Below, piece after piece: positions 3,966 to 63,924 of a DNA stretch of 64,000 nt. Made by a program: the position numbers and the translations under genes. The DNA is taken from contig CM022670.1 of assembly GCA_012295275.1 (NCBI GenBank), forward strand, positions 7,918,712-7,982,711, read 5' to 3'. Within the stretch, counting starts at the first letter, position 1; every line of letters starts with the position of its first letter. The stretch comes from Chrysomallon squamiferum (taxonomy: Eukaryota > Mollusca > Gastropoda > Neomphalida > Peltospiridae). Below the pieces are notes generated by a model, which made no database searches, was not told the DNA's origin, and was given only the letters and a program-made list of their open reading frames with translations.

Positions 3966-6900
3966 CTCTCTCTGCATCTCTCTCTCTGCACATTACCAAG
4001 ACACCAAAAACATCAGATTTGTATTAAAATGTTAGAGACTTTAGGTATTCTTTGCCATTTCTTTTTAGCTAAAGGGCACATTATTGAATTTTGTATTCCC
4101 ATTAAAAAAAATTAAATGCTTTGCTTATTGTATTTTTCAGATTTAAAACTATAATGTTTTTCACCATTTAATATTTGATGCAGTTCATTAGTCTGCTGTA
4201 TAACAGCTCCAACAATAAAAATTCTTAAAATGATACTTATCAAGAATAACAATGCATGTTAAAATCATAGATTTCTTTTTCGTTTTTATTATTTTTTATT
4301 TTTTATTTTTTTTATTTTTTTGTAGATTGTATTTCACTAACTGTACTCAGGATTTCAATATCTTGTTTCCAGAGTTCATAGTCTTAATGCATTTCTATAC
4401 AATAACACTGTTATCTGAAGACTATTCATTAGTTTGTCATAACAGCTCTCTAAATAGATTAATTTCACAAACATGTATCATTCCTCACACAAACCAGTGT
4501 TCTGACAAGATTTATTACAATAGTAATATTTATTAAAACCGACATACAGGCATTAAAAAGAAAAATTAATACATTTGTAGGTGTCTAATTGTATCAGTAT
4601 TCTGTTCACTTTTCACTGGGCTGATTTGATTACCTTCAGTTATTGGAGAAATCTTGATGTATTGCCTTGTGCAGTGTCATTTTGCTGCTTCTTCCAGTCT
4701 GAGAGGATGAGAGAAAAACAGAATCATTTAATTACGTCCATACTCAAAACAGAGAACAACATCCCTGCTGGGCTTTCGTACTGGAGCCAACACAGGATGA
4801 AAATACCACACTGCAGATGTTTATGTTTGATACCCAGTGAAAGTTGGAGATTGCAGACCTCAACATTAGTGTTTAATTTATTGGCCTAATAGTCCGATTA
4901 GATTAGTCTTCAGCACCATTGAGCCACAGTCTGATGGCCAGTGTTAATAATTCAATCAGAAATTTTCACTTCATTTCATTTCCAACCATGTGTTACAATG
5001 GCTTTTTTTTTTTTCATTTTTTTTTTTTTTTTTTTTCAATGCTTCATGAGTCCGGTCATCTCTAAGATAGGCTGTCCTTATGAAAAAAGACAAGTAAATG
5101 GATTCATGTTTCATTGCACTAATTAAATCAAACTACTTCTGTGACGGTCTCAGCCTGCTGGTCTGAATAAAGACAGGGTTAAAGATAGGATTTGTTGGTA
5201 TTGTTGATGTTATTGATTTTAAGTGAAAAAAGGCTAATAACAGTTGTTTTGTGTTTGGCTGATGTATGAAACAGTGAATGTGTAGACAAGTTTTCAGATT
5301 AGAATGTGACCACGGGAAAGAAACCAAGAGAAAGAGTCTGTGAGTGAATATGTTTTACCCAAATCTCACAATTACTCTTATCACATCTTCAATTTTCTTC
5401 CATCCAGAAAAAATAAAATAAAATAAAAAATAAAACATTATAAAAGCATAATTGTTTACTAAGAAGTTTCTGAATTTTGCTAATTGTGTTCAGAATGGAT
5501 ATTGTTTTGAAGTATGACAAACTCCATAAATATTGGTTTATTTTCCTGCAATTCAATGCACATTATTTTGGTCAACATTAATCAAACTCTAAAAAATTGT
5601 TTACAATTAAACATAAATACGTTTTGAAGATCAATCAATTAACATTAATTTATGGTCATGGTAAAGTATACTCAGCCTAACACAGACCATATTTAATTCT
5701 GTATATCTTGAGGTTACAGATTTTTGGGAAGGTTCTGGTAAAGTTAAAAATAAAATGTTGAGATTAGTTTCAGTCTGGGGTATCATAAAATCCAATTGTG
5801 AAATGAATGATCTCCTAATACTTTCAGATAGCAACTGTTGTAGTTTAATTTAAAGTCATCAGGTTATAAAAAGTTGAGTTTATTAATTAAATCACTGTAA
5901 AAATGAGCTTACTCCATCTCTAAATGCATCCAATTTATTTCTAATGCTGAGACATTTATTGAAACGTGCAATACAAATTTCATTTATTCACCCATTGTGG
6001 ATTTAATAGTTGTTTTCATGACACATAATTTAGTTTGAGCCACAAGCTGATTTGTTCTCCTGTTATAAACCAACAAGTTTATTTGACACAACATTTTCAG
6101 TGTCACATGAATAAGTCACTCCGAAAACATTTCCATGTTGAAATATGTCGTAAACTGTCGATTATTTAGCGTGTTGTTTGAGAAGCAGTGTAATAAACCA
6201 TTTCAGATGATAGTTTTGTCTCAAGACAAAGCTTAACTGTTTCAGTTATAAATGTCTGTAATTTGATGATTTGTCATCTTAGTCTGCGGTAGTTTATATG
6301 TGTCCATTCATGGATGTATGTGTTACAGAACAAAAACTCTTGTTTTATTGCATGATATTTTATAATTTGCACATACATATGCATATGAGCGTCTGTTTAT
6401 GTGTATATGTGACCATTGCCAACCTTGTTCTTGTTTATTTACAAAGTTTAAAGAATTAGATAATGTTTTGTGTTTAGGGTAAATGTCTGTTATATATTCT
6501 ATCACAATATTATATAAATAAATGGACTAAAATCTATAAATGGTCATTCTAAAGCTGATTAATGAAGTAAAATAAGAATTGTTAGATGCATTTTTTATTT
6601 TCAATTTCAGTAACTTACCAGTTGTAATTTCCCACACTTTTTCTTCTTTTTTCTAATTTTCTTTTCTTTTCTTTTCTTTTTTTCATTTTATGTTATTTCT
6701 GAAGTGTACTTATATCTTAGTTTTTCATTTTGTTAACACATAACACTAGACTAAACAGACATTAATGACCCAAATTAACAAATCTCATTTCTATATAATC
6801 TTGTTAAACTGCAGTAATATTATCATGCACAGATATTTTTGTATCTGAAACAACAGTCGGCCTGTCAGCTTCTCCTAATAATACATGAAGAAATATTGAA

Positions 6901-9900
6901 AATCTTCTTGTTCTGACATCACATCAAAGGCCTCAGAATATCATTAGAGAATCAGATCCGATTCTCATCAAGTGAATTTGCGGTTCAATCCATGCGATCC
7001 GCCAGATATCTCTTGCTTTTCTTCTACTTCAAAAGACTGCTGAGTGTTGTTGAACAAGGATATTAACAAATAGCTAATTATCTTAATTGATTAGTATGAG
7101 TTAAAGTGGTGCATTGTCTACGGTTTGAAATGCATGATACTGTCTGCTGAGTGTTGCAATGTGCTTGTTTTTCTTATGATTGCAGATCGTTAATCTTTTT
7201 TTCCTTTATTCTTGTTTTATTTGTTTTTAATAACTCTTTCTTTAAGTTTCTTTTAGTTTTTTTTTTTATCTGATCTGATTTTTAAAGATTGTCAAATAAC
7301 AAATGCAGTCTGGTTAGAATAATAGTTGAAAAGATGTTTACATCACTGTTATCTGACTTTATCTTATTTCCAGACATACTTATCCCTATCTTAAATCAAG
7401 ATTGCTTTTTCATTTTATATAATATTTGTATTGTTTTATTATTATTGTTATTATTATTATTATTATTATTATTAATTGTTGTTATTTTACTTTCCTTAAT
7501 TTATTCTAAGGATACTTGTCAGTTTTTGAGGTCAGATTTCAGGTGTGTGATTTTTATTGATCATTTTAATGAACTGACATGTTGATCAATTGGAAAAATT
7601 ATCTTGAAAGCGTATAACAATCTGTAACAGTATGAATCAAAATTACAAAAAAAAAAAGAAAAAAAACGAAAAGAAGAAAAGAAACAAACATATTAAGAAA
7701 ACAGCTTGACTAAGAAAATAAAGAAACAAAACAACAACATATTATCTTTTATTTAAATGAAACTTGGTAAACAAAGAAAAGAAAGAAGAAAGCACAGGCA
7801 TGATTAACAAATGTGGTTCTGTGTGTTTATATATATCTGTATGTGTAAGGTATATAATGGATTAGACTAAAGATTTCATATTGACACCAGAAATAAATAC
7901 ACTGATTAGTCAGAAAATATAATTTTAACCAAAATGACATATTTAGAAACACTAATACTATGTTACTATATCAATCTTCCAGCCATGACCAGCTTCCAAA
8001 TTAATCTGTTAATACTTCCTATTCAAGAAAAAGTCAACCTTTACAGTTTTACCAATTATAGCTCATTTTTCACTCACACAAAAATAATTGAAGTACTGTA
8101 CTTATTTCTTTTGTTTAGAGTGAAAGATAAATATTTTCACAACACCAGGATATCATTTCCTATGTTGTGTTGTTTGTGTTGTTCATTGTGTGTGATTAAC
8201 AGATTATTCTTGTACACTGCAGTGTTTTCATGCTGCACAAAATCTTTAAAGCAGAGCTGTGGTCTTTGTTTGATGTTTGCACAACATTGCAGTTCATTTT
8301 GTGATTACTGTCAGAAATAATTTCAAGTAAAACTAATCGGTTGTGAAGGTTTCAAAAGCACTGAAGCTTACTGTGAATCTTAAATGTTAATGCTAATCTA
8401 AGATTCACTACTATCCACAATGCAAACAGAATCATCGTGTTAAGAGTAAATATTTTATGTTTCCAGTTATTGTTGTAAATACCAAATTAATTATTTGCTT
8501 GAATGTTCTTATAAATCAACAGGATTAAAATAAGTAGATTTTCAATAGGTTTTTTGGACATAAAACTAACAAAACAGTAATGAAGAAGAACCTGTATTAT
8601 GAAAATTAAAAATTTGGCTAGACCACTGACTTCAAGTCCCCTTGCACTAACTCAGGCTGATTTTAATAAACATTAATCATTACACATTTATTAATGATTT
8701 TATGGTAGAACTGTGGTGTGGTAAAACTGACACTTTATTTTCATTAATCCAATAAATTTACTGTTTCAGACTGCTGAAGTTTATTGCAAAACATGAAGCT
8801 TAGGCTTCCATCTTGATTTATAAGTGGTCATCAATGGAACCATGTTATATATCTTGTAAATAATATATTCGTCATTTGAATCAATAAAGATCCTAAAACT
8901 GTAAAGTGTTAAATGAAAATAAGTGAATACTAGTAATTTTGATTTTAAAACTATTTTTGTTAGGAATATTTCTCTACAAAATTTAAAATATGATAAAGTT
9001 AAATTTTTATATAATTTGTTTGTTTTTGTATGTTTTTTTGTGGTTTTTTTTTTTTGTTGTTGTTTTTTCTGTTTACTTTTCTGTTAGTTTTGTGATATAG
9101 GTCATTAATAATAATAATAATAATAAACCTTTTTTCTAGCTTTTAGAAAAACAAATGTACTGGTATACAAATACACAGATAATATTTTCTCATAAATTGC
9201 CATGTAAATCAAGAACAAAAAGAAATCAAAAGCAAAATTTTGAAAATTTTGAAAAATCCAGTTTTTTTATATTGGAATAAAATAAAATCACAGTAGATTT
9301 GAGACAGACGTTCTAATTTAACTGTTATTCTAACCCAGTGTTTCTATGGTAGCAGCAGGTAACTAACAGTGCCAATATGCTGAATGGCCATCTAGCCAAT
9401 TTTGTTAATGCTCCTGTATTTGGTTAATAGAAGTCCATGAATCCTTTTATTTTCATTTTTATTCCTTTTTCTTTTTTTATTTCTGATGTAATCTTATTTA
9501 TGGCTTAGACCATACCAAAAAAAAACCTTACAACTTTTATTTAATTTTTGGCCTCTCTTAACTCAATAAAATTTGGCAAAGAATTCATTTCGCAGTTGTC
9601 CACAGGAGTGACAGAATTTCTGAATTAACTTGTTCCACCAGCTCCAATTTCCGCTCTCTCCTATATTAATGTGTCGAAGGCTTACTGAATAAACACAGAC
9701 GGCCTGTATACTGGATTATAAAACTACCCGAATCAACACGAACTCAGTAAAACTACAGTGTTTTGCAGGTTTCTACATATTGATTTGAAGGGATCATAGG
9801 CCAGTGGACAAGAAGATATCCATGGAAACGTTAAAGCAATTATTTGGTAGAATTCCTTGGGATTTTATCCAGAAAATATTTTAATGCTGAGTTTTAATTA

Positions 9901-22600: not shown

Positions 22601-25600
22601 TGAAAATTTGAACAAATTGAAAAATAGTTTGAAAATGTGAATATTCTCAAACAATGTATTGGTTTATATATTATATATATCACAAGACGATCAAATTTTA
22701 TTTAAAAATTATTATTGTTTTGTTGTGTTACATATATATATATATATTGAAATTTGAATATTTTATTTGATCTGGAATCAATTTTTTATTTTTATTAATT
22801 TTTATTAATAATAACATGCACTTTATTGACTGGCTTTGGAATTTAAATTAATTCTAAGATCATTCTGCTTAAATGTAAACACAAAACAGGTTTATCAGAT
22901 TCATAACACCTGGGAATTAGTTTCAGTTTTCCTTGCAACCTTGAATAAAAATCGTATAAGTACAGGATCTATGGATTATTTTTTCTTTTTTTAAATTTAC
23001 CAAAAACAAAAAATAATAATAATAAAAAAAATTAATGAAACAGCTACATTTCAAATTATTTGTGGTGAATTAAGTAGCAGATTTTTTTTTTTTTTAATTT
23101 AAAAAAGATAGGGTTTCCATGAGAACAAAATAAAATAACAATAAAAGTTCAGCAATGAACTGATTAGTGTCTGCCATAATCTTAAGAAATAATTTTAAAA
23201 AGAAAAAAGAAAAAAAAAGAAACATGTCCTTAAAACCCAAAATTCTTCATAGTTATTGACAGATGAATAAATATTGAATATTTCATAACTAAATTTTAAA
23301 GCATATTTAACTGTTCACTTCTATTTATTTCAACATTCTCTTTTGTAATTATGCAGTTAAAATAATTTTTAGACTCAGGCCTGATGAATCTTTTTCTTCT
23401 CAGTTTAAAGTTTTTGTTATGTATTTGTTTACTAAAATTATACTGAAATATGTAATCTTATATAATCTGTCAGAAATCTTGAAAATGATTAAAAAGAAAA
23501 GATTGAAATTAAATTTCACAAAAACCATATGAACAATTATATGTGAACCATGTGAACAATAAGATTGAAATTTTGATACAAATTGGACAATTTCTGGCTA
23601 TTAGAATAATTATTTATATAATCCACTGTTCTCAGGATACATAATGATATGTATGTTTGAAATTAAAAACTCATAGATCAAACTGAAGCAATTACTGAAA
23701 TATTATATTTTAGAACTACTTGAAATAGATACATCTTGTCAGTGAAAAACAACCATGGTGAAATTTAGAATTGAAATATATATATATAAAAAAATAATAA
23801 TAATTCTGCAATAAACTTCAAAGTAACAATGTCTGTTTACCATCATTGAGGGAACAGTTTGAAATAATTATGGAAAAATGATTTCTCTGAAGTACTTGAA
23901 ATGAATATACTTATACAGTAAGGAAATAGACCTAGGTGAAATTTAAGATTAAAATTATTTTAGAAAAAGGAAAGTTCTACATTAAACAGATGGTCAGCCT
24001 AACTGTCTGTTTACCACTGGTTGTTGTATGCAGCAGATTTGAGTTGAAGACCTGATTTCAGTCATTTATCATGTGTCACCACTATCATTAGTCACAGAGT
24101 CTCTGTACAGGGATATCTCCGTCCATCAAATGTGATTTATAGCTTATTTGGAGATGCTAATTCAAATGTTAATTTAAAACCAAAAACATGTGTTGCTCAT
24201 CAGCTGGTGCATAGGAAGATAATCTGTATAGAATTACATTCCATTCTGATTGATGAAAAATACATTGTTAACTCGACATGCCAAGGTTATGAATGTTTAA
24301 TTATTCACTGTCTGTTTTTTTCAGTTTTTATATTTCACTGATATTAAGTACATTGTTAACTCCATGTGCCAAGGTTAGGAATGTTTAATTATTCACTGTC
24401 TGTTTTTTTCAGTTTTTATATTTCACTGATATTAAGAACATTGTTAACTTGACGTGCCAAGGTTAGGAATGTTTAATTATTCAGTATGAATATTTATTTA
24501 TTTATTTCTGATTGATGTTAAGTACATTGATAAATCAACATGTCAGTGTTATGAATGCTTAATTATTTGGTGTGTTATTATATCCAGTATTTATATCTGA
24601 TTGATGAAGTGTAGATATTTTTCAGTATTTATATCTGATTGATGAAGTGTAGATATTTTTCAGTATTTGCATATGACTAATTAAAAGTACAGTGATAACT
24701 TGATTTATTGAATTTATGAATATTTCGTTATTTGATGTGTATTTTACAGTATTTCAGTCAGATTGCTTAGCATTTGTACTTAAAATTAATGACTCTTAAT
24801 TTTACATGTTATATATATACTATTAATCCAGGTGTACTTTTCACTTGTGTGATTCAGTATTAAAGTTTACAGGTAGATACTTTGAACATTAAAACTACCT
24901 TGAAATGCATAATGATTGAAGGTGGTAAATTTATTAGGATGATTACATTTATTTGCAAAATTTTTCATCATAGCCTAGTTTTTTCTTGAAGTGCATCATT
25001 ATTAATGAATATTACCTGGTAATGTTTGTATTCCTGTGTCTGTATGTGTATGTATTGATGTGCATGTGCATGTGTGTGAAAATAGCTTGATTATAACTTT
25101 CCTAAAGTAAAAAAAAAAAATGGCTTCTGATTAAGAAACTTCTCTGTTTTCTTTTATGGAATATGTTTATATTAAAAATACTTTTTTTTACACTGAACAT
25201 GTTATTTTCACATAAAATTAATATCACATATATCTTTCAAGGGACTTTTGTTGATGTCTGATAAAGATTTTTCCATTACTGATAACAGTGTTTCTAGAAT
25301 GTATCATTCATCTTTACAAACATTGCTCATCCTCATTTTATCTTTTATTAACATACAAGAACACAGTCATCTTTACATTTGCCATTGACTTTGAGTTTCT
25401 TTTATATCTTCTTTGTTTTCATTTCCTTTCTTCAGCATTGATTTATCTAAACACAACTGTTTAATTTACTGACTGAACTGAGAGGTTAAAGATTTCCCAT
25501 GGCTTGGACCAGGCAGTGTTTGTGATCAACTATCTACATCCATACTTGTGTTTGTACAACAAATAAATCCATCCATCCATCATTATGTTAAAGTTTCCAT

Positions 25601-38430: not shown

Positions 38431-39402
38431 TTTATTTTAATATACACCTTTTTTTATCCAACACATATTCCATGTTGTTTATTTGTTTATTGATTCCAAT
38501 CTGTTAATTTATAATTTAATTTATACCTAATGGAAAAATAATTTCCTCTTTATTATCCTAGAGCTATAATACACTTATTAATAAAATGTTTATTAAGATG
38601 ATGTTTAAAAATTCCTATACATTATCACTACTATTGTATTTTTTCTTCGTTTTTTTTCAGAACTACAAAAGCAGAACAGAAGGAAGATGCAAATGATGAC
38701 ACTATTCGACCAGTAAGGTTTGCAGTGCAGTCACTGGGGTGGGTGCCTATTGCAGAAGAGGACCTGACCCCAGAGAGAAGCAGTAAGGCAGTCAACAAGT
38801 GTATAGTAAACCTATCCTTGGGTCGCAATGACATCAATGATGTGGTCGGAAGATGGGGTGATGTAAGTTCAATAAGTGTTTTTTATTTCTAATTATTGAA
38901 ATGTAACATTACATAAGTTAAACGTAGGTCTTTTGTCAGCAATACGATGTCTGGTTAGTGTAACTTGTCTATAATTTTGAATTTAGTTATTTGAAAGTGA
39001 TTCTTTTGCTGTTGTTGTTTTTTTTGTTTGTTTGTTTTTTATTTTTTTTATTTTTTTTTCCTGTGCATATGCTGTTACAAGGATTGTATGTTACATCCTA
39101 TTACATGTAAAATTCGACTCCAAATGTAATTTTTAAAATTTTAAATTTTATTATTTAATTTCTTTTTATTATTGGTCTCTTTCTTGGCTTAAACCTTATT
39201 CCACTGAATATTTTTAATGAAACTGAATGTTCCCAGTAAATACAAAGACTCTCGAACCTTAAAATTATCTAATAATACTAAAAATAGTCCTAACCATTAA
39301 ATTTGGTTCTTTTGTAACAGACACAATTTAAAAATGGGTGTGTTTGTCTGCATAAAATTGATTTCAGGATATCATGATCAGACGTCATTGTTTTTTTTTC
39401 TT

Positions 39403-39433
<31 letters not shown>

Positions 39434-39919
39434 ATGTGAAACTTTGATGTGGACAGTAAAAACAAGCTATCTCAGGTCTTGATTTGTTTATTTTCTTCTG
39501 AGACGAGGGAATTCTTGTCACGCTATTGACGTATAAAAGACGTCATTATGTGGCGACGTGAGAGGGCTGGATGTGCGATGCAGTTATGATAATTCTGTCA
39601 GGTTTTTCATTGTATGAAAATTACAGTTTTGATGAAGTTAATTTCTCCTAGAATGGATTTATCTTGTCCCTTTCAGACGAATGTGATGAACTATAGCAAT
39701 AATTTTCATGTAAATGTAAAATAAATATTAAAATATTAGACATGTTATTTTTTTTTTTTTACTTTTATTTTTACTTAATTTAAAAATCTGATTTATTTAT
39801 TCATTCATTTTATAAACTTAAATGTATTTTTATTCTCAAGGAGAAAAATTAACTCAAATTTTCTTTTGTTTCCTTTAATAATATTTTTTTTATATATTCA
39901 TTTTATTTTTTTATATATA

Positions 39920-39959
<40 letters not shown>

Positions 39960-40011
39960 TATATATATATATCTGGGAATGTTGTTTTCAGTTTTCACCT
40001 CCTTTTTTCAT

Positions 40012-40058
<47 letters not shown>

Positions 40059-43000
40059 GAATTTTGAGTTTTGCTATTAAGCAGGTCCCATGGCAAACAT
40101 TTCAGATTTTTATTAATGGTGCCATCAGGTTGGAAAGTGATGGTTATGTCAGATAAAATAATTGCTAAAGTGGTCTTTTATGTTGCTTGGTACTTAAAAA
40201 CACATTGCTTGCACACTTGATATCTAAACATAATGGTCATGTTTCCAAAAACTGGTCAGCTGCATATAGTCATTTCTGTACTGAATACCAAATAACCATA
40301 CAGCAAAGACATGGGGAATAGCCTTGATAATAAATTTAAGGGGGAGATGGAGGTTTGGGGGGAGGTATCTTTAAAAAGATAATTAACATTTAATGTTTTT
40401 TGTGTATGTCTGTGGGTATGTGTATTGGTTCATGATGTGCATTTAAAAAAAATATGTTATTTTGACACAAATTGAAATAAAAGTTTTTTTTTTTTTTTTC
40501 ATTTGGCATATTTAATTTTTTTTCACCATTAGTATTTTGTTTGTTTTATTTACATTTAAAATATTTCCTTATTTATGTTTTATTCTTTTTTCTTTTAATT
40601 TGTTGTTGTTTATGTTCTTTTTCTGATATTGTCATAAACTAAATATAACTTGTCCGTCCATATAAAACATGCTCACAAATTAGTAATTAATTAATGTATT
40701 GTAAATGAATATTCTACTGCATATTCAAACTGTACTTCCACTGATTTGATAATTTAAAAATATAAATATTTGTATATTTCATAGCAGTAATAATAAAATA
40801 AAAATAAAAATCAGGTATTTTCTAAACACATTTGATGCACACAATCACATATGTAGGCTATGAAATAATGTGAGAGTGCTAAGTAATATATACTCAAAAT
40901 CTTTTAAAGAAACTCACCTATCAAATCAAGGGAAGATGTTTTCTCACTTTCCCATCCTTTTCTGTGGAGATAAATATAAATATTTATATTTTTGAAGTTT
41001 AACAAGTTTAAAATATTGTTTATTTTATTGTACTTCTTAATGATTTGGGATGACAGTTTTTATGAGAGCAGAGATTGGTACATGGATCTAATATAAAACT
41101 ATGTGTCTATTTCAGAGTAAAAAGTAATATAAATATCTGTGTATTTTAGGGTAAAGACTTGTACATGGATCTGATATAAATATCTGTGTATTTCAGGGTA
41201 AACATGGATCTGATATAAAATACATGTGTATTTCAGGGTAAAGACCTGTACATGAATCTGATATAAATATCTGTATTTCAGTGTAAAGACTTGTACATGG
41301 ATCTGATATAAAATATCTGTGTATTTCAGGGTAAAGACCTGTACATGGATCTGATATAAATATCTGTGTATTTCAAGGTAAAGACCTGTACATGGATCTG
41401 ATATAAATATCTGTGTATTTCAGGGTAAAGATCTGTACATGGATCTGATATAAATATCTGTGTATTTCAGGGTAAAGACTTGTACATGGATCTGATGTAA
41501 ATATCTGTATTTCAGGGTAAAGACCTGTACATGGATCTGATATAAATATCTGTGTATTTCAGGGTAAAGACCTGTACATGGATCTGATATATATATCTGT
41601 GTATTTCAGGGTAAAGACCTGTACATGGATCTGATATAAATATCTGTGTATTTCAGGGTAAAGACCTGTACATGGATCTGATATATATATCTGTGTATTT
41701 CAGGGTAAAGACCTGTACATGGATCTGATATAAATATCTGTGTATTTCAGGGTAAAGACCTGTACATGGATCTGGACAGTACAAGTCTGAGACTTGTTGA
41801 CACACAGGATCTTAGCCTGCTTCACTACCAGCCCATCCACTCCATCAGAGTGTGGGGAGTCGGCCGCGACAACGGCAGGTAAATATCACATTTAATTTTA
41901 CTCTTCCAGTAATTTTTATATTATATAAATAAGTTTATCCATTTTACATACATACATACATATATATCCACATATTTAATATAACACAATCATGCATGTG
42001 CACACACAAATATAAACATTCCAAGATTTTATAAGCATTACTAAGAGACTTAAATGTTAGAAGTGAAACAGAACCCAATGTTTATAAACAAAATTTAACA
42101 TACCCAGCCAATAAAAGTAAAATTTATTTATCTTAACTGCAGCATTATTATCTGGTTATTATCATTTACTAAATTTTCAGTTCTTATGATTAATGTCATA
42201 TCTTAACTGTTATTTTCACTAAAATAATTATCTGTTTTGTCTCAAGTTTTCAAGTTTGCAACAAACACAAATCCTTGATAATCGAAATTTATGATGTATT
42301 TCTCTTTCTTTTAATTTCTGTTTTCCTTCAACAGGGAAAGGTAAATCTATGTCAGATTAGTCTTATGATTTTTGTATTTCATATTCTTTGATTTTAGTTG
42401 AAATGTAAAAAAAAATAATAATAATTAAAAAAAAAGATAATAAAAAGAAATTTTTGTAATTTTTATTTTCGTTGTATATTTTTTTGTGAAATGAATTATC
42501 TAGATTTGTTATAAATGTTTCACTGCATTGTTTTCTTATTATTTTATTTTAATTTATTGTTAGATGTATATTAGATAAATCATTATTTGCACATTATTTT
42601 ATATTTATATGTCTTTTTTTTCTTTCTTGTTTTTCACATCTTATTTTAAATATTTCACATTTGTGTAATGGTCCTGTAGTCCAAAGTGTTCATCTGACTT
42701 AGTAGATTTTGTTGTTATTGATAAATAAACTTTGTTATTTCTTATTGCATAAAACATAATAAAGTTACTTTTATATAAAAAAATAATTTAATTTAATTCA
42801 AAGATGATAGTAAATGAATACTTATTTTATCAACAAAAAAAAAATTTCAAAGGAACATGATTAAATTAATAAGGGTTATGTGAAATATGTTGCATAAAAA
42901 TTTCTTCTTTTTTTTTCTTTTTTCTTTTTTTATTGTTACTTTATTATTAAATTTATTATAATTATTAAACAGTTTCGTAATTTTAAAATTTTAAAACAAA

Positions 43001-43414
43001 CAATTATAATTCTAGAGTTGAATATTGTATTATATATTCTAAAAATTATTGTAAAGATTTGATATTATAAAAATTTTTTTTTTTTTTTTTTTTTTTAAAG
43101 AACCAAGAATTTAAGTGTTTATCACTCTGTAAAAACATTAGCACTGTTTTACATTCTAAACCTTTTATCAGGGATTTTGCCTACGTCGCCCGAGACAAGT
43201 CAACTCAGCGTCACATGTGTCATGTTTTCCGATGTGACATGCCGGCACGGCAGATCGCCAACACCCTGCGTGACATCTGTAAGAAGTTGATGGTGGAGAG
43301 GACAGCGATGCAACGAATGAATCGGCCAACTGACCTTCCAAACCTGGAAAAGGTCAATGGAAGTGGACAGAAGATTTCATTCCAGAGTTTGTATAACAGT
43401 AAGTATCTTTCAGC

Positions 43415-43451
<37 letters not shown>

Positions 43452-46400
43452 TATTAAAGATTAAACTAGTTTTGTTGATAGTAAGGTACAGATAAGTCAG
43501 TCAGCATAATAAAAAGTACTGTGATAATATTAGTCTGAAAAGTATTCACAGAGGAAACATTTCATCAAAGACGTTTCCATTTCATATCATATATTCATAG
43601 CACGATCAATACATTACCATTTTAATGTCCCACATGAAATATGTACAGTATGTGCTGATAGTGAAAGATAAAAAAATAATTATACAAGGAATATTAAAGT
43701 GAAACACTAAAGAATTTATGTTTACTAAAAATAGTTGACAGAAATAGTTCATTTCTTTTGAGTTATTTTAAAAGATATTAACTGTTACAGATACTTCCTT
43801 CGAACATTATTTTATTTGTTTTTGTTTTTTTTTGTTTAAGTTTCAAAGAAGTAATTTTAACTTTGAATGGGTAATGAACAGTGTTGTTTTTATTTAACTG
43901 ATAACAGATAACTGTTAAGAAAATCAATTGCTTTTTGCTGTCAGTGTTAATTAGTCCATCTTATTATCTGTTGGTCATAAATACAGTCACATGTACACAC
44001 ACACATTTTTACAAACAAGCTGATATGTACTTAACAGTCATGCATTAATGTTGTTTTTATTGTGTTACTATTACTGTTATTATTATTATGATTATTGTTA
44101 TTCTTATTGTTATTGTTACTGTTATTGTTATTGTTATTGTTATTGTTATTATTATTTAGATACATCATTTCCAACTCCAATGGAAGAACCCAAAAAAGAC
44201 ATTCGTTGTCATTACCTGGGAACACAACTGGTGTGTAAACCAACAGGTAAGTGCTGTCTTGTGTTTCTCAGTTTAAAATTATCACTCATCTCTTTATGAT
44301 TTGACCTTTTTATTTTTTTTTTTTTTTTTTTTTTTTTTATAGTTTTGAAAATTAAGGGAGATAACTATCCATTTAATATATTTTTAATTACACACACACA
44401 CACACACACAAAAAAAACAAAAAAAACACAGAACAGCTGTAGTATTCATTCACAACTGATTTCAGTATTTTCAGTTCAGTGCAGTTACTGAAAATTTAAT
44501 GTTTGATTCAAAGTAATAATAATAACAGTAATATAATTTTTAATTTTTGAAAACTATGTTTCAGGTATTGACATTGTAAATGAAGCAATAGAAAGAGCAT
44601 GTCGAAAGGTTCCACCTGAGAAGTGGCAGTTTGTCTGTGTGTCTGTGGCACCCTCCACTGTCACTGTCACAGAATACAGGGTTATATTTTACTTCATCAG
44701 ATTTTCTCTTGTTGAAAATATTTTAACATTTAATGATAGCTGAGATTTCTTTCTTTTATTTCACATACAATAAATACAAGAATATTTTTTTTTTATTAGT
44801 ATTATTTTATAAATATTTTCAAAATAATTTTTGTCAAACAAAATAACAATAAATATATATTTAAAAGACTTTATTGGAGATTTTTTTTTTTTCTATTTAT
44901 CTATGTTTAATAGATATTTTACTTTTGTATATAAACACTGTATATAGATTGTTTTGATAAAATTTGTTAATTTGTTGTTTGGAGATTTTCTTTCTTTCAT
45001 TTATTTTTTTTCATTTTAGTTTTTTTATGTCAAGAAATAATATTTTACAACAGTTATATTTTTTAATTTTTTTTTTTTTTATTATTATTTTTTAAAATTT
45101 ATTTTTATATATGTTTGTTTATTTATTTATTTGTTTGTTTGTTTCAGAACCCTGAGAAAAAGATACATGAATGTCGTGTTCGTTTCCTGTCCTTCATGGG
45201 AATAGCCCTGGAAAATGTCAAGTAAGTTACAACAAACAAATACAAATCTGTGTGAAATACTGATACACTCTTGTCTTTCTGTCCTATAGTAATTTAAAGT
45301 AGTTGTAACTGTGTGCAGTATTACCTTTGTTGCTGGCAGTTATTAAATAAATAAAAATAAGATACAACTTGATATTGTTATAAATTTAACCAAATTTTCA
45401 ATATTTTACAGACACTGTTCTATTTTTCTTCCTTTTTTTTATTTTCGTTGTAGGAAAGGCATTTTAGCTGTTTAAAAATAAAGTTGTTCCTTAAAGATAA
45501 TTTAAATGTGGATGTGTACAAAATTGTTAAAAAACAGCTGTATTATTTGCTGCTATCATGAATAATTTTTAAACATTTTCTTTTTTTTTTTCTTTTATAT
45601 TTTATTATATATATATATTTTAATTAATTTATTATTATTATTATTATATTTATTTATTTATTTACTTTTTTTTTTGAAGTTTTAAAACTGATATGAGTGT
45701 ACAGTTATAAACTCTGTTTACTTTCAGGCTGTGTGCATTTATAATGCACGATGCCCAGGACAAGTTTGTTGCCCACGTGTTCCATTGTGAGCCATCAGCT
45801 GGTCCACTCTGTAAAACCATTGAGGCTGCATGCAAGGTAAAAACTTTAATTACCTTTTACACTTTACATTTTCCCTTAACTCTTACAAAACATTATCATA
45901 ATAACAACAAATTTTAATATTACAGTTTCATTATCAACAATTGATTAAATCCAGTTTCTTTTATTAGCACTATTATTTTCATTTACTTTGTAAAACTAAA
46001 AGTTACACACAATCTTTTATTAATTATTATAATAATTTCTAGAATATTTATTTTAATAAAAATTAATTTTTTTTTTTCCTGTTGGTTTATCAGGTAATTA
46101 AATAATCCAGTTTTTTAAATGTAGACATAAACTAGTGTCACTTAAAAGATAATTTCCTAAATCTTTTAAAATTACTGTTGACTTACAAATGTAATTTTAT
46201 TGTTTGTTAAAGCTGAGGTACCAAAAGGCCCTGGACTCCCACAAACCCCAGACACCAACCACACCCTCGGGAGGAAAGGTTTGTTTATCTTTAACATCTT
46301 CAGTGTTGTTGTTGTTTAACTTTTTACTTTACGTTTGTGTTAGTTATTATTACTGCTAGTGTATTATATTTATTTACTTTGATAAGTTTTATTAAAAGTT

Positions 46401-61802: not shown

Positions 61803-63924
61803 CTGTGAAATGTGAACAGTGAACAGTGAACAGTGAACAGTGAAATGTGAAAATATGAATGGGGAAATGTGAAAATGTGAATGGTGAAATGTAAAAATAT
61901 GAATGGGGAAATGTGAAATATGAACGATTAAATGTGAAATATAAACAATAAAATGTTAAATATGAACGGTGAAATGTCAAATATGAATGGTGAAATGAGA
62001 AATATGAACAGTGATTTCTGAAGAATATTTAGTAAAAAGTAATATGAAAGAAGGAAATGTGAAAAAAAATCAACAACATTAAAAAGAAAAAAAAAATGTT
62101 GAAGACCCACTCGACACATTTTATATAGATATAACTGGACATTGTAAAGGACCACTGAGACCAATGGAGAGGAAAATTGCTACTCCTCTTTCCAGTTAGG
62201 ATAGGATATTTTACAAGCACCTTCCCACATACAGGAAAATACATATTATAGCAGATGTGAGTCACTGGCTGGAATGACAAATAACTCAGTGGACACACCA
62301 AGAGGGTTAGATCTGAGTGTCACAGCAGCTTAATGCTGGTGATCTCTAACTTTGAGAAAATGTAAATAACTAAACAACAAACTGTTCAAAATAAAAAATG
62401 CTGTTTTAAACATAACTGTTGTTAGTAATATTGAATTTATAAATAATGGAGCATGAACACCAAACTGTGAGATGTAGAAAAGGAAGTTTTAATTAAAAAT
62501 AGGGTCTAGTGAAATGTATATTGTGGAAAATGAATTGTGAAATATTATAGAACACTTGGTACAGATTAATCAAAATATAACTAATGATATGTAAACTAAA
62601 AATAACACGTGAAATGAAATCTGAAATGCAAATTGTGAACAATGAAACATGAACAGTGACATAATGTTAAGCACTGAATAATGAATAATGTAATATATTT
62701 AAATAAACAAAAACTTTAAAAGAAATGAATGGTTAAAACTAAATTTAACACATTAAAATAATAAACACTTTCTGAAAAGCATGATATAAATCCCAAGGTA
62801 CAGGCATTCACAGGCAGATCATGATAAGCATGGCTGTAGGCATATTCAGAGTCAGGTATTATGTTGTTATAGGCATATTCGCAGGTAAGTCAATATAGGC
62901 ATTCAACAGGCATACACAGGTAAAAAATTGTAGATGCATCTACAGGCATATGCAAAATAAAGTCCTGACTGGATTTGCTATAAACATAAACTGAAGTAAA
63001 ACAAGAATGACATTGCTAAAGGCATACACAAAAGTAACTATATTATGCCAGTGATATATAGCTGTAGGATAAGAGGTAAAATATGATAATCACTGATATA
63101 GGTAAACAAAAGGCATTGCTGTATGCATAAGCAGAGGTATATTTAGACAGGTATAAATAGAGGTATATTCAAACAGGTATAAATAGAGATATATTCAGAT
63201 AGGTATAAACAGAGGTATATTCAGACAGGTATAAATAGAGGTATATTCAAATAGGCATTGTTACAGACATAAATAGAAGTATGTACAAGCAGAGAGGTTA
63301 AGGCATAAACAGAGATATATATAAATAGGCATATTTATATAGTACAAACAGAGGTATATAAAGTTGAATACTGTTATAGGCATATGCTGAAGTAAGCCAT
63401 GATAGGCATTATAAACAGCAGGATCTCATTAGATCTGGCAAGCTTTGTAAACTTATGAAAAACATCATTAGAAAATAAACTGAAAGTATGACAGCATTAA
63501 TGATAACTCACACTCATGCACACACATTAAACACACACACTCATGAACTCATAAACTCACACAACATACACAAACATACATAGACATGTATATACAGACA
63601 CACAAACACAAAACACACACACATTCCAACATATATAAAAGAAATCATAAAAAAATTTCAAAAAGCAACCAACCTCTCTGGTAATGACAGCAACAAAACA
63701 TCCGTTCATCTTGCTGCTGGGTGAGAATTTCATGTACTTCCCGACTATGCCGTCCCTGCTCTCTATTTCATCGGCGTTGAAGGGAAGAACCGGGGGCACC
63801 AGGCGGTAGGGGATTCTCTTCTGCTGCACCATGTTGATGAACTCCACAGCTTTCTGGACCACGTTCTCATTCTCCTCCTCATACACTGACCTTGTGTAGT
63901 AAACCACAGCCTGACTTCGGTGTA
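61509..63924 (-). CDS. NSUN7: NSUN7-like RNA methyltransferase-family gene, 3' part
   Basis: Gene-level entry for two exons on the - strand; the gene continues past the right edge. NSUN proteins are SAM-dependent RNA cytosine-5 methyltransferases. The exon at 63674-63924 carries the end of the Rossmann domain (AVVYYTRSVYEEENENVV), then PYRLVPPVLPF and GCFVAVITRE, the terminal strands typical of the family. The TRSV form and the tail order (VLPF, VAVITRE, ARAHSKGLV, then a Lys/Ser-rich tail) match vertebrate NSUN7 as I remember it better than NSUN2/5. The Cys of the usual TC motif is Arg here. Human NSUN7 appears similar, so activity is uncertain. Confidence 0.85.
61806..62010. repeat. Tandem repeat at the NSUN7-like splice acceptor
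   Basis: On the + strand a GTGAACA heptamer repeats at about 61812-61842, and an approximately 22-24-bp unit (GGTGAAATGTGAAAATATGA-like) repeats to about 62010. On the transcribed strand this is a TTCACTG pyrimidine-rich array directly upstream of the acceptor. Confidence 0.85.
62800..63410. repeat. Degenerate tandem repeat in NSUN7-like intron
   Basis: A GTATAAATAGAGGTATATTC unit with small variants repeats most regularly at 63120-63260. More decayed AGGCATA-containing copies lie on both sides. Confidence 0.75.
63674..63924 (-). CDS. NSUN7: NSUN7-like exon: end of methyltransferase domain
   Basis: On the - strand the acceptor is ATATTTCTCAG just above 63924 and the donor AGAGAG|GTTGGT just below 63674. 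It enters in phase 1 (two bases, then HRSQAVVYYTRSVYEEENEN) and leaves in phase 0. It encodes the motif-VI strand region, a helix (VVQKAVEFINMVQQKR), PYRLVPPVLPFNADEIESRD and NGCFVAVITRE. An ORF continues leftward past the donor into intron and is not coding. Confidence 0.9.

Follow-up and report, generated by a model that had tools for sequence, protein, structure and literature searches.

A tandem array with the anatomy of a mirage minisatellite repeats the 3′ splice site of an Fe65 exon in the gastropod Chrysomallon squamiferum

The closest described counterparts of the array reported here are the mirages of amphioxus, tandem repeats lying across an intron/exon boundary that have been described in Adh3, BflGb6, BflGb9, PGBD5 and TnC (PMC3087553, PMC3902484). 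The clusters vary in length. The two BflGb6 haplotypes carry 6 and 3 units respectively, and the copies of the PGBD5 mirage are imperfect (PMC3087553, PMC3902484). Regular splicing is apparently undisturbed by these repeats, as judged for the globins by RT-PCR (PMC3087553). The same source describes the Rogers model, in which introns are gained by tandem duplication of a sequence bearing AGGT (PMC3087553). In human genes lying in segmental duplications, variable internal tandem repeats are found at exon-intron boundaries (PMC2812944). Recursive splice sites of flies and vertebrates provide a further comparison (PMC6110457, PMC8605326), which the snail array resembles in having an acceptor and donor-like letters close together. 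Those of flies consist of juxtaposed AG/GT and are reported to be confined to very long introns, the segments of which are nearly all >1 kb (PMC6110457).

The window analysed is a stretch of 64,000 nucleotides of the C. squamiferum genome, and coordinates refer to it unless a survey stretch is named. The Fe65/APBB exons that bear on the array are as follows (slashes in splice-site motifs mark the junction).

38661..38862, plus strand: upstream Fe65 exon with the start of PTB1; ends in WGD, phase 0, donor GAT/GTAAGT
41749..41750, plus strand: AG of the last acceptor, the entry to the full exon; placed from the sequence and from a homologous protein that is continuous across 38862/41751
41751..41878, plus strand: real Fe65 exon, 128 nt, reading GKDLYMDLDS...GRDNG plus 2 nt; donor CAG/GTAAAT; matches 3d8d_A and P0121
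42335..42340, plus strand: 6-nt microexon, GGAAAG, between CAG and GTAAAT; a Glu-Arg insert is predicted from the frame
43172..43398, plus strand: next Fe65 exon (DFAYVARDK...); 3′ end placed at the GTAAGT after 43398

The identity of exon 41751-41878 was established by a match of 43 residues to PDB 3d8d_A (APBB1, E 9.6e-12). When the exons were joined into a 457-aa query, the closest relative was Fe65 of Gigantopelta aegis (89% identity, 98% query coverage) and the second best came from Haliotis (73%). The upstream exon aligns to residues 332-399 of the G. aegis protein (P0121) at 84% identity. The same protein reads WGD-GKDLYMDLD with no extra residues at the homologous junction; being a comparison of proteins, this speaks for the homologous junction and not for an array in the G. 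aegis genome. The intron between the two snail exons therefore spans 38863-41750 (2,888 nt). A genome search found no paralogue of exon 41751-41878, its two strong matches both being neighbouring Fe65 exons and the remaining three matches being weak (E 0.06-0.35). Vertebrate FE65 contains a neuron-specific 6-nt miniexon at the place of the snail microexon. A relative (P0002) reads GRERDFAY, which matches the Glu-Arg predicted for the microexon.

Tandem Repeats Finder placed an array at 41127-41774, with a period of 47, 14.0 copies, 91% matches and a score of 1103. The 47-bp unit is composed of an exon half, GGTAAAGACCTGTACATGGATCTG (24 nt), and an intron half, ATATAAATATCTGTGTATTTCAG (23 nt), and the array shares the first 24 nt of exon 41751-41878. 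Both the alignment of units and the repeat finder bear out the initial annotation, which had described a 47-bp unit of about 14 copies ending at the real exon and joining ~23 nt of intron end to 24 nt of exon start. The parts of the array are listed below.

41070..41115, plus strand: leftmost unit, decayed; recognised by unit alignment, which pushes the start of the array to ~41070
41116..41750, plus strand: 14 array units of 34-48 bp, with the exon half first and the intron half second
after 41115, 41149, 41196, 41236, 41281, 41329 and 41376, plus strand: upstream entry points
after 41423, 41470, 41515, 41562, 41609, 41656 and 41703, plus strand: further upstream entry points
41471..41496, plus strand: candidate 26-nt frameshifting pseudo-exon with donor-like GAT/GTAAAT, 7.1 bits

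There are thus 14 upstream entry points and one real one. By score, the Fe65 array ranks first among the 27 arrays detected in 264 kb of this genome (period of at least 18, at least 2.4 copies, overlaps merged), the next scoring 432. A DNA search of the genome with positions 41700-42000, using a tool that skips very common words, returned 13 matches, all of them within the array, and the 47-bp unit was absent elsewhere. A dispersed element as the source of the unit was rejected on the same lack of a genome match outside the array.

Most of the ladder retains the signals of a 3′ splice site. The AG is in place at 13/14 upstream entry points; at 41376 it has been lost (CAA/GG) and has moved by one base, to 41377. 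A branch-point-like yUnAy motif is found in 13/14 upstream copies as well as at the real site, its A lying 20-24 nt upstream of the last base of the AG, and no further AG occurs in between. In most units this motif is CTGAT, which forms at the seam of the exon half, ending in CTG, and the intron half, beginning with AT, so that a unit is by itself a complete acceptor. Acceptors were scored with a small matrix built from 13 other Fe65 acceptors, the weakest of which scores 8.4 bits. On this scale the real acceptor at 41750 scores 9.6 bits and eight of the 14 upstream acceptors score 9.6-10.2 bits, above that weakest site. The remainder comprise one of 8.3 bits and five of 3.7-6.3 bits. When 101 AGs of the intron were scored, the array held nine of the best 11, the real acceptor included. 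The earlier description of a ladder of near-identical 3′ splice sites therefore holds for the AG, which is kept in 13/14 copies, but has to be qualified for the 6/14 copies that are weakened, as measured on a small matrix.

The similarity between the real site and its neighbours is extensive. No base differs between -151 and +24 when the real acceptor is compared with the copy 94 nt upstream, and the copy 47 nt upstream matches it from -17 to +24. Past base 24 the real exon continues with GACAGT, the copies with ATATAA, ATATAT or ATGTAA. Because the 94-nt pair is identical, a choice between the two must rest on sequence beyond exon base 24, on the donor at 41878 or on position. G+C content is 54% in the exon, 32% in the array and 25% in the upstream intron. 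Our literature search on the choice between duplicated acceptors found no paper. One copy, 41471-41496, could serve as a 26-nt frameshifting pseudo-exon, judging from its GAT/GTAAAT, which at 7.1 bits falls within the range of the Fe65 donors.

Translation from the upstream entries always ends early: all 14 meet a stop within 3-23 codons. This agrees with the claim that a wrong copy would truncate the protein inside PTB1. It had further been proposed that a standard upstream copy reads GKDLYMDLI and then a stop. This is the case for 7/14 upstream entries, one of them being the entry at 41376 that has lost its AG; from the shifted AG of that entry the frame reads VKTCTWI and stop. The other entries read differently, namely GKDLYMNLI, CKDLYMDLI, GKDLYMDLM and SKK, each followed by a stop, together with one frame of 14 codons and two of 23 codons. 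Since the copies share a unit and an entry frame, the shared stop counts as one property and not as fourteen.

The units record a direction of growth. Changes relative to the last unit increase leftward (Spearman -0.69 over the 14 units before the last; a fraction of 0.0048 of 5000 permutations were as low), bearing in mind that single-base variants in near-identical units are possible polishing errors, as the assembly combines Nanopore and Illumina data from a heterozygous individual. Between 41516 and 41680, identity is 1.00 at a lag of 94 and 0.98 at a lag of 47, giving a two-unit period, and this period at the right end suggests that units were probably added two at a time in the latest growth. 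Deletions are present in three of the four leftmost units, in one of them at its outer edge. The left end of the array has diverged, whilst at the real exon the unit has the same sequence as inner ones. The gradient and the deletions at the left fit growth at the exon edge, in line with the observation in the initial annotation that right-hand copies are near-identical and left-hand ones decayed.

Set against the described systems, the array has the anatomical features of mirage minisatellites, as far as the sequence of one assembly can tell. It likewise spans an intron/exon boundary and repeats splice signals: the unit takes in 24 exon nt and 23 intron nt and the array ends at the real exon, the AG and the yUnAy motif are each kept in 13/14 copies, and 8/14 copies score like Fe65 acceptors. 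As in BflGb6, the unit contains an intron end and an exon start, and its length lies within the range of 10-72 bp given for the Adh3 mirage. It differs from BflGb6 in belonging to a mollusc gene and in having ~15 units, compared with 3 and 6. Moreover, the account of BflGb6 reports that the cluster boundaries lie outside homogenisation, whereas the unit at the real Fe65 exon is identical to inner units. A minisatellite at an exon boundary had been put forward as unusual. Amphioxus mirages, already described, make it less so; for molluscs the claim stands to the extent that our literature searches found no mirage-type array, which is not proof that none is in print.

The other two systems are more distant. 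As in the Rogers model, the array duplicates AG and GT and would in principle be able to found splice pairs. However, it sits at an existing boundary and mostly carries AGGGT. The human boundary repeats also touch exon-intron boundaries and can alter gene structure (PMC2812944). They differ in occurring in paralogues and in having exon and intron length changes documented in transcripts, and the portion of that study used here describes no ladder of complete acceptors (PMC2812944).

We consider it probable (roughly 0.8) that this is a mirage-type minisatellite of which the last acceptor is used, with slips onto other copies lost to nonsense-mediated decay and the array nearly neutral. A tandem duplication across the 3′ splice junction would have copied the intron end together with the first 24 exon nt. 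Repeated unequal exchange or slippage would then have brought the array to ~15 units, the most recent of them added next to the exon, and most of these units would each hold an entire 3′ splice site. Splicing most likely continues to join 38862 to 41751. Exon definition would favour the last acceptor, the only one that leads straight into the GC-rich exon body and its good, nearby donor (9.5 bits for the donor of exon 41751-41878). Entry at an upstream copy would lengthen the exon by at least 47 nt and include a stop codon, which would make the RNA a target for removal by nonsense-mediated decay. On this view the array is most likely a passenger, close to neutral, that exacts a small cost in splicing. 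What speaks against such a passenger is that 8/14 upstream acceptors, at 9.6-10.2 bits, equal or exceed the 9.6 bits of the real one. With upstream acceptors this strong, and with exons of just 175 and 222 nt resulting from the nearest copies, leaky use is quite possible.

Leakage is also the starting point of a different reading, in which the upstream copies yield stop-bearing isoforms whose share, set by copy number, tissue or splicing factors, would adjust how much Fe65 is made, possibly in concert with the nearby microexon. Several copies match the real site in local sequence, and as all upstream products are truncated, any leakage would cut protein output. However, the shared stop comes from one unit and one entry frame and is a single property, and the signals are weakened in 6/14 upstream copies. 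We regard this reading as unlikely, and a regulatory role of the array as possible. Less probable still is that the assembly misrepresents the copy number or created part of the array. According to the assembly report (PMC7142155), the sequenced snail had a heterozygosity of 1.38% and both Nanopore and Illumina reads were used, and short reads would hardly be able to polish the identical right-hand units, leaving the single-base variants and the exact number insecure. Private and shared unit variants arranged in a left-right gradient are, however, not expected from an assembler. Moreover, the array is far shorter than the retained reads, those <3 kb having been discarded according to the methods of that report (PMC7142155).

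The proposal with the least to recommend it is that the copies act as recursive-splicing (ratchet) sites, which the initial annotation had raised on account of an AG beside GGTAAAG. Each unit does have an AG near GTAAAG, and one copy, at 41377, has an exact AG/GT. In 13/14 upstream copies, however, a single base separates AG from GT, and every step would therefore retain one surplus nucleotide. The commonest donor-like site, AGG/GTAAAG, scores 4.2 bits in place and 2.0 bits after joining to the upstream exon, and the exact AG/GT copy 5.5 and 3.3 bits respectively. For comparison, 11 Fe65 donors score 6.8-12.7 bits on the donor matrix, which is small and was trained on these same 11 (the 9.5-bit donor of exon 41751-41878 was not in the training set). 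The 2.9-kb intron and the spacing of ~47 nt are also at odds with fly segments that are nearly all >1 kb. Furthermore, GGT AAA encodes Gly-Lys, residues present in 6/6 mollusc and nemertean proteins read, which indicates that the donor-like letters come with the coding sequence. As AG and GT are not juxtaposed in 13/14 copies, the regenerated donor is weak and the intron is short, recursive splicing was rejected, and we give it next to no weight.

The same genome was surveyed in 20 stretches of 10 kb, taken at 1-Mb steps through the first 20 Mb of one chromosome (C1), plus the window, using a crude exon predictor trained on the Fe65 gene. A boundary copy at 79% identity or more within 600 nt was found for 2/38 predicted exons, the Fe65 exon and the following one.

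Stretch L039, 3969-4054, minus strand: RCC1-domain exon with one copy ~323 nt upstream, near 4377

The L039 copy, a single one in the upstream intron, comprises the acceptor and the first 34 exon nt with two differences. When 72 predicted exons were scanned less stringently, hits were obtained at 7/144 boundaries, compared with 2/144 in the control. The seven are the Fe65 exon and L039, both sound, together with L027, L037, L038 and positions 48037 and 34321 of the window. L037 and L038 were discarded as boundary copies, being simple repeats in doubtful exons. In L027, a striatin-like exon on the minus strand has a stretch of ~28 nt from its end repeated in the next intron (~1500-1527 and 1591-1618); this is a copied exon end, which may or may not include the boundary itself. 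Inspection of an array, rather than the exon-boundary scans, revealed a weaker case in L034, where a decayed ladder of TTTTCAG/TTAAT at 6899-7090 (Tandem Repeats Finder period 44, spacing 22-88 nt) runs 5 nt into a 222-nt open exon at 7086. This open exon had no Pfam match, and its translation may resemble androglobin. Within the limits of a small sample and crude exon calls, the survey suggests that boundary duplication recurs in the snail genome.

Other repeats were noted along the way. Arrays that lie right at exon edges but contain no exon letters were seen at 61865-62009 (minus strand) and 44044-44156 of the window, at 3586-3948 of L039 and at 1726-1830 of L035; two of the four form the pyrimidine tract of an acceptor and two begin just inside donor-like sites. 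At 24261-24668 of the window, an 88-bp repeat of 3.5 copies, with TTTTTTTCAG in two of the copies, is followed by a 38-bp repeat of 2.2 copies.

The Fe65 array is a natural experiment in exon-start choice. Two of its acceptors, separated by 94 nt, do not differ in sequence from -151 to +24 and have further close copies behind them, so a preference for one of them would have to come from position, from the exon body or from the downstream donor. The array also extends the mirage-type repeat, described in amphioxus, to a mollusc. In view of the clear boundary duplication (L039) and the weak ladder (L034) also seen in 200 kb of the same genome, one may ask whether genomes beyond amphioxus repeatedly copy exon edges. 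It is conceivable, if rather improbable, that boundary-spanning duplication is recurrent in the snail, much as it seems to be in amphioxus, and that the run of Fe65 acceptors, an extreme outcome of it, leaks stop-bearing isoforms according to copy number. If so, Fe65 dosage would be a heritable, length-variable trait through copy-number-dependent leakage. More generally, copied exon edges may supply material from which stop-bearing exons and new introns arise.
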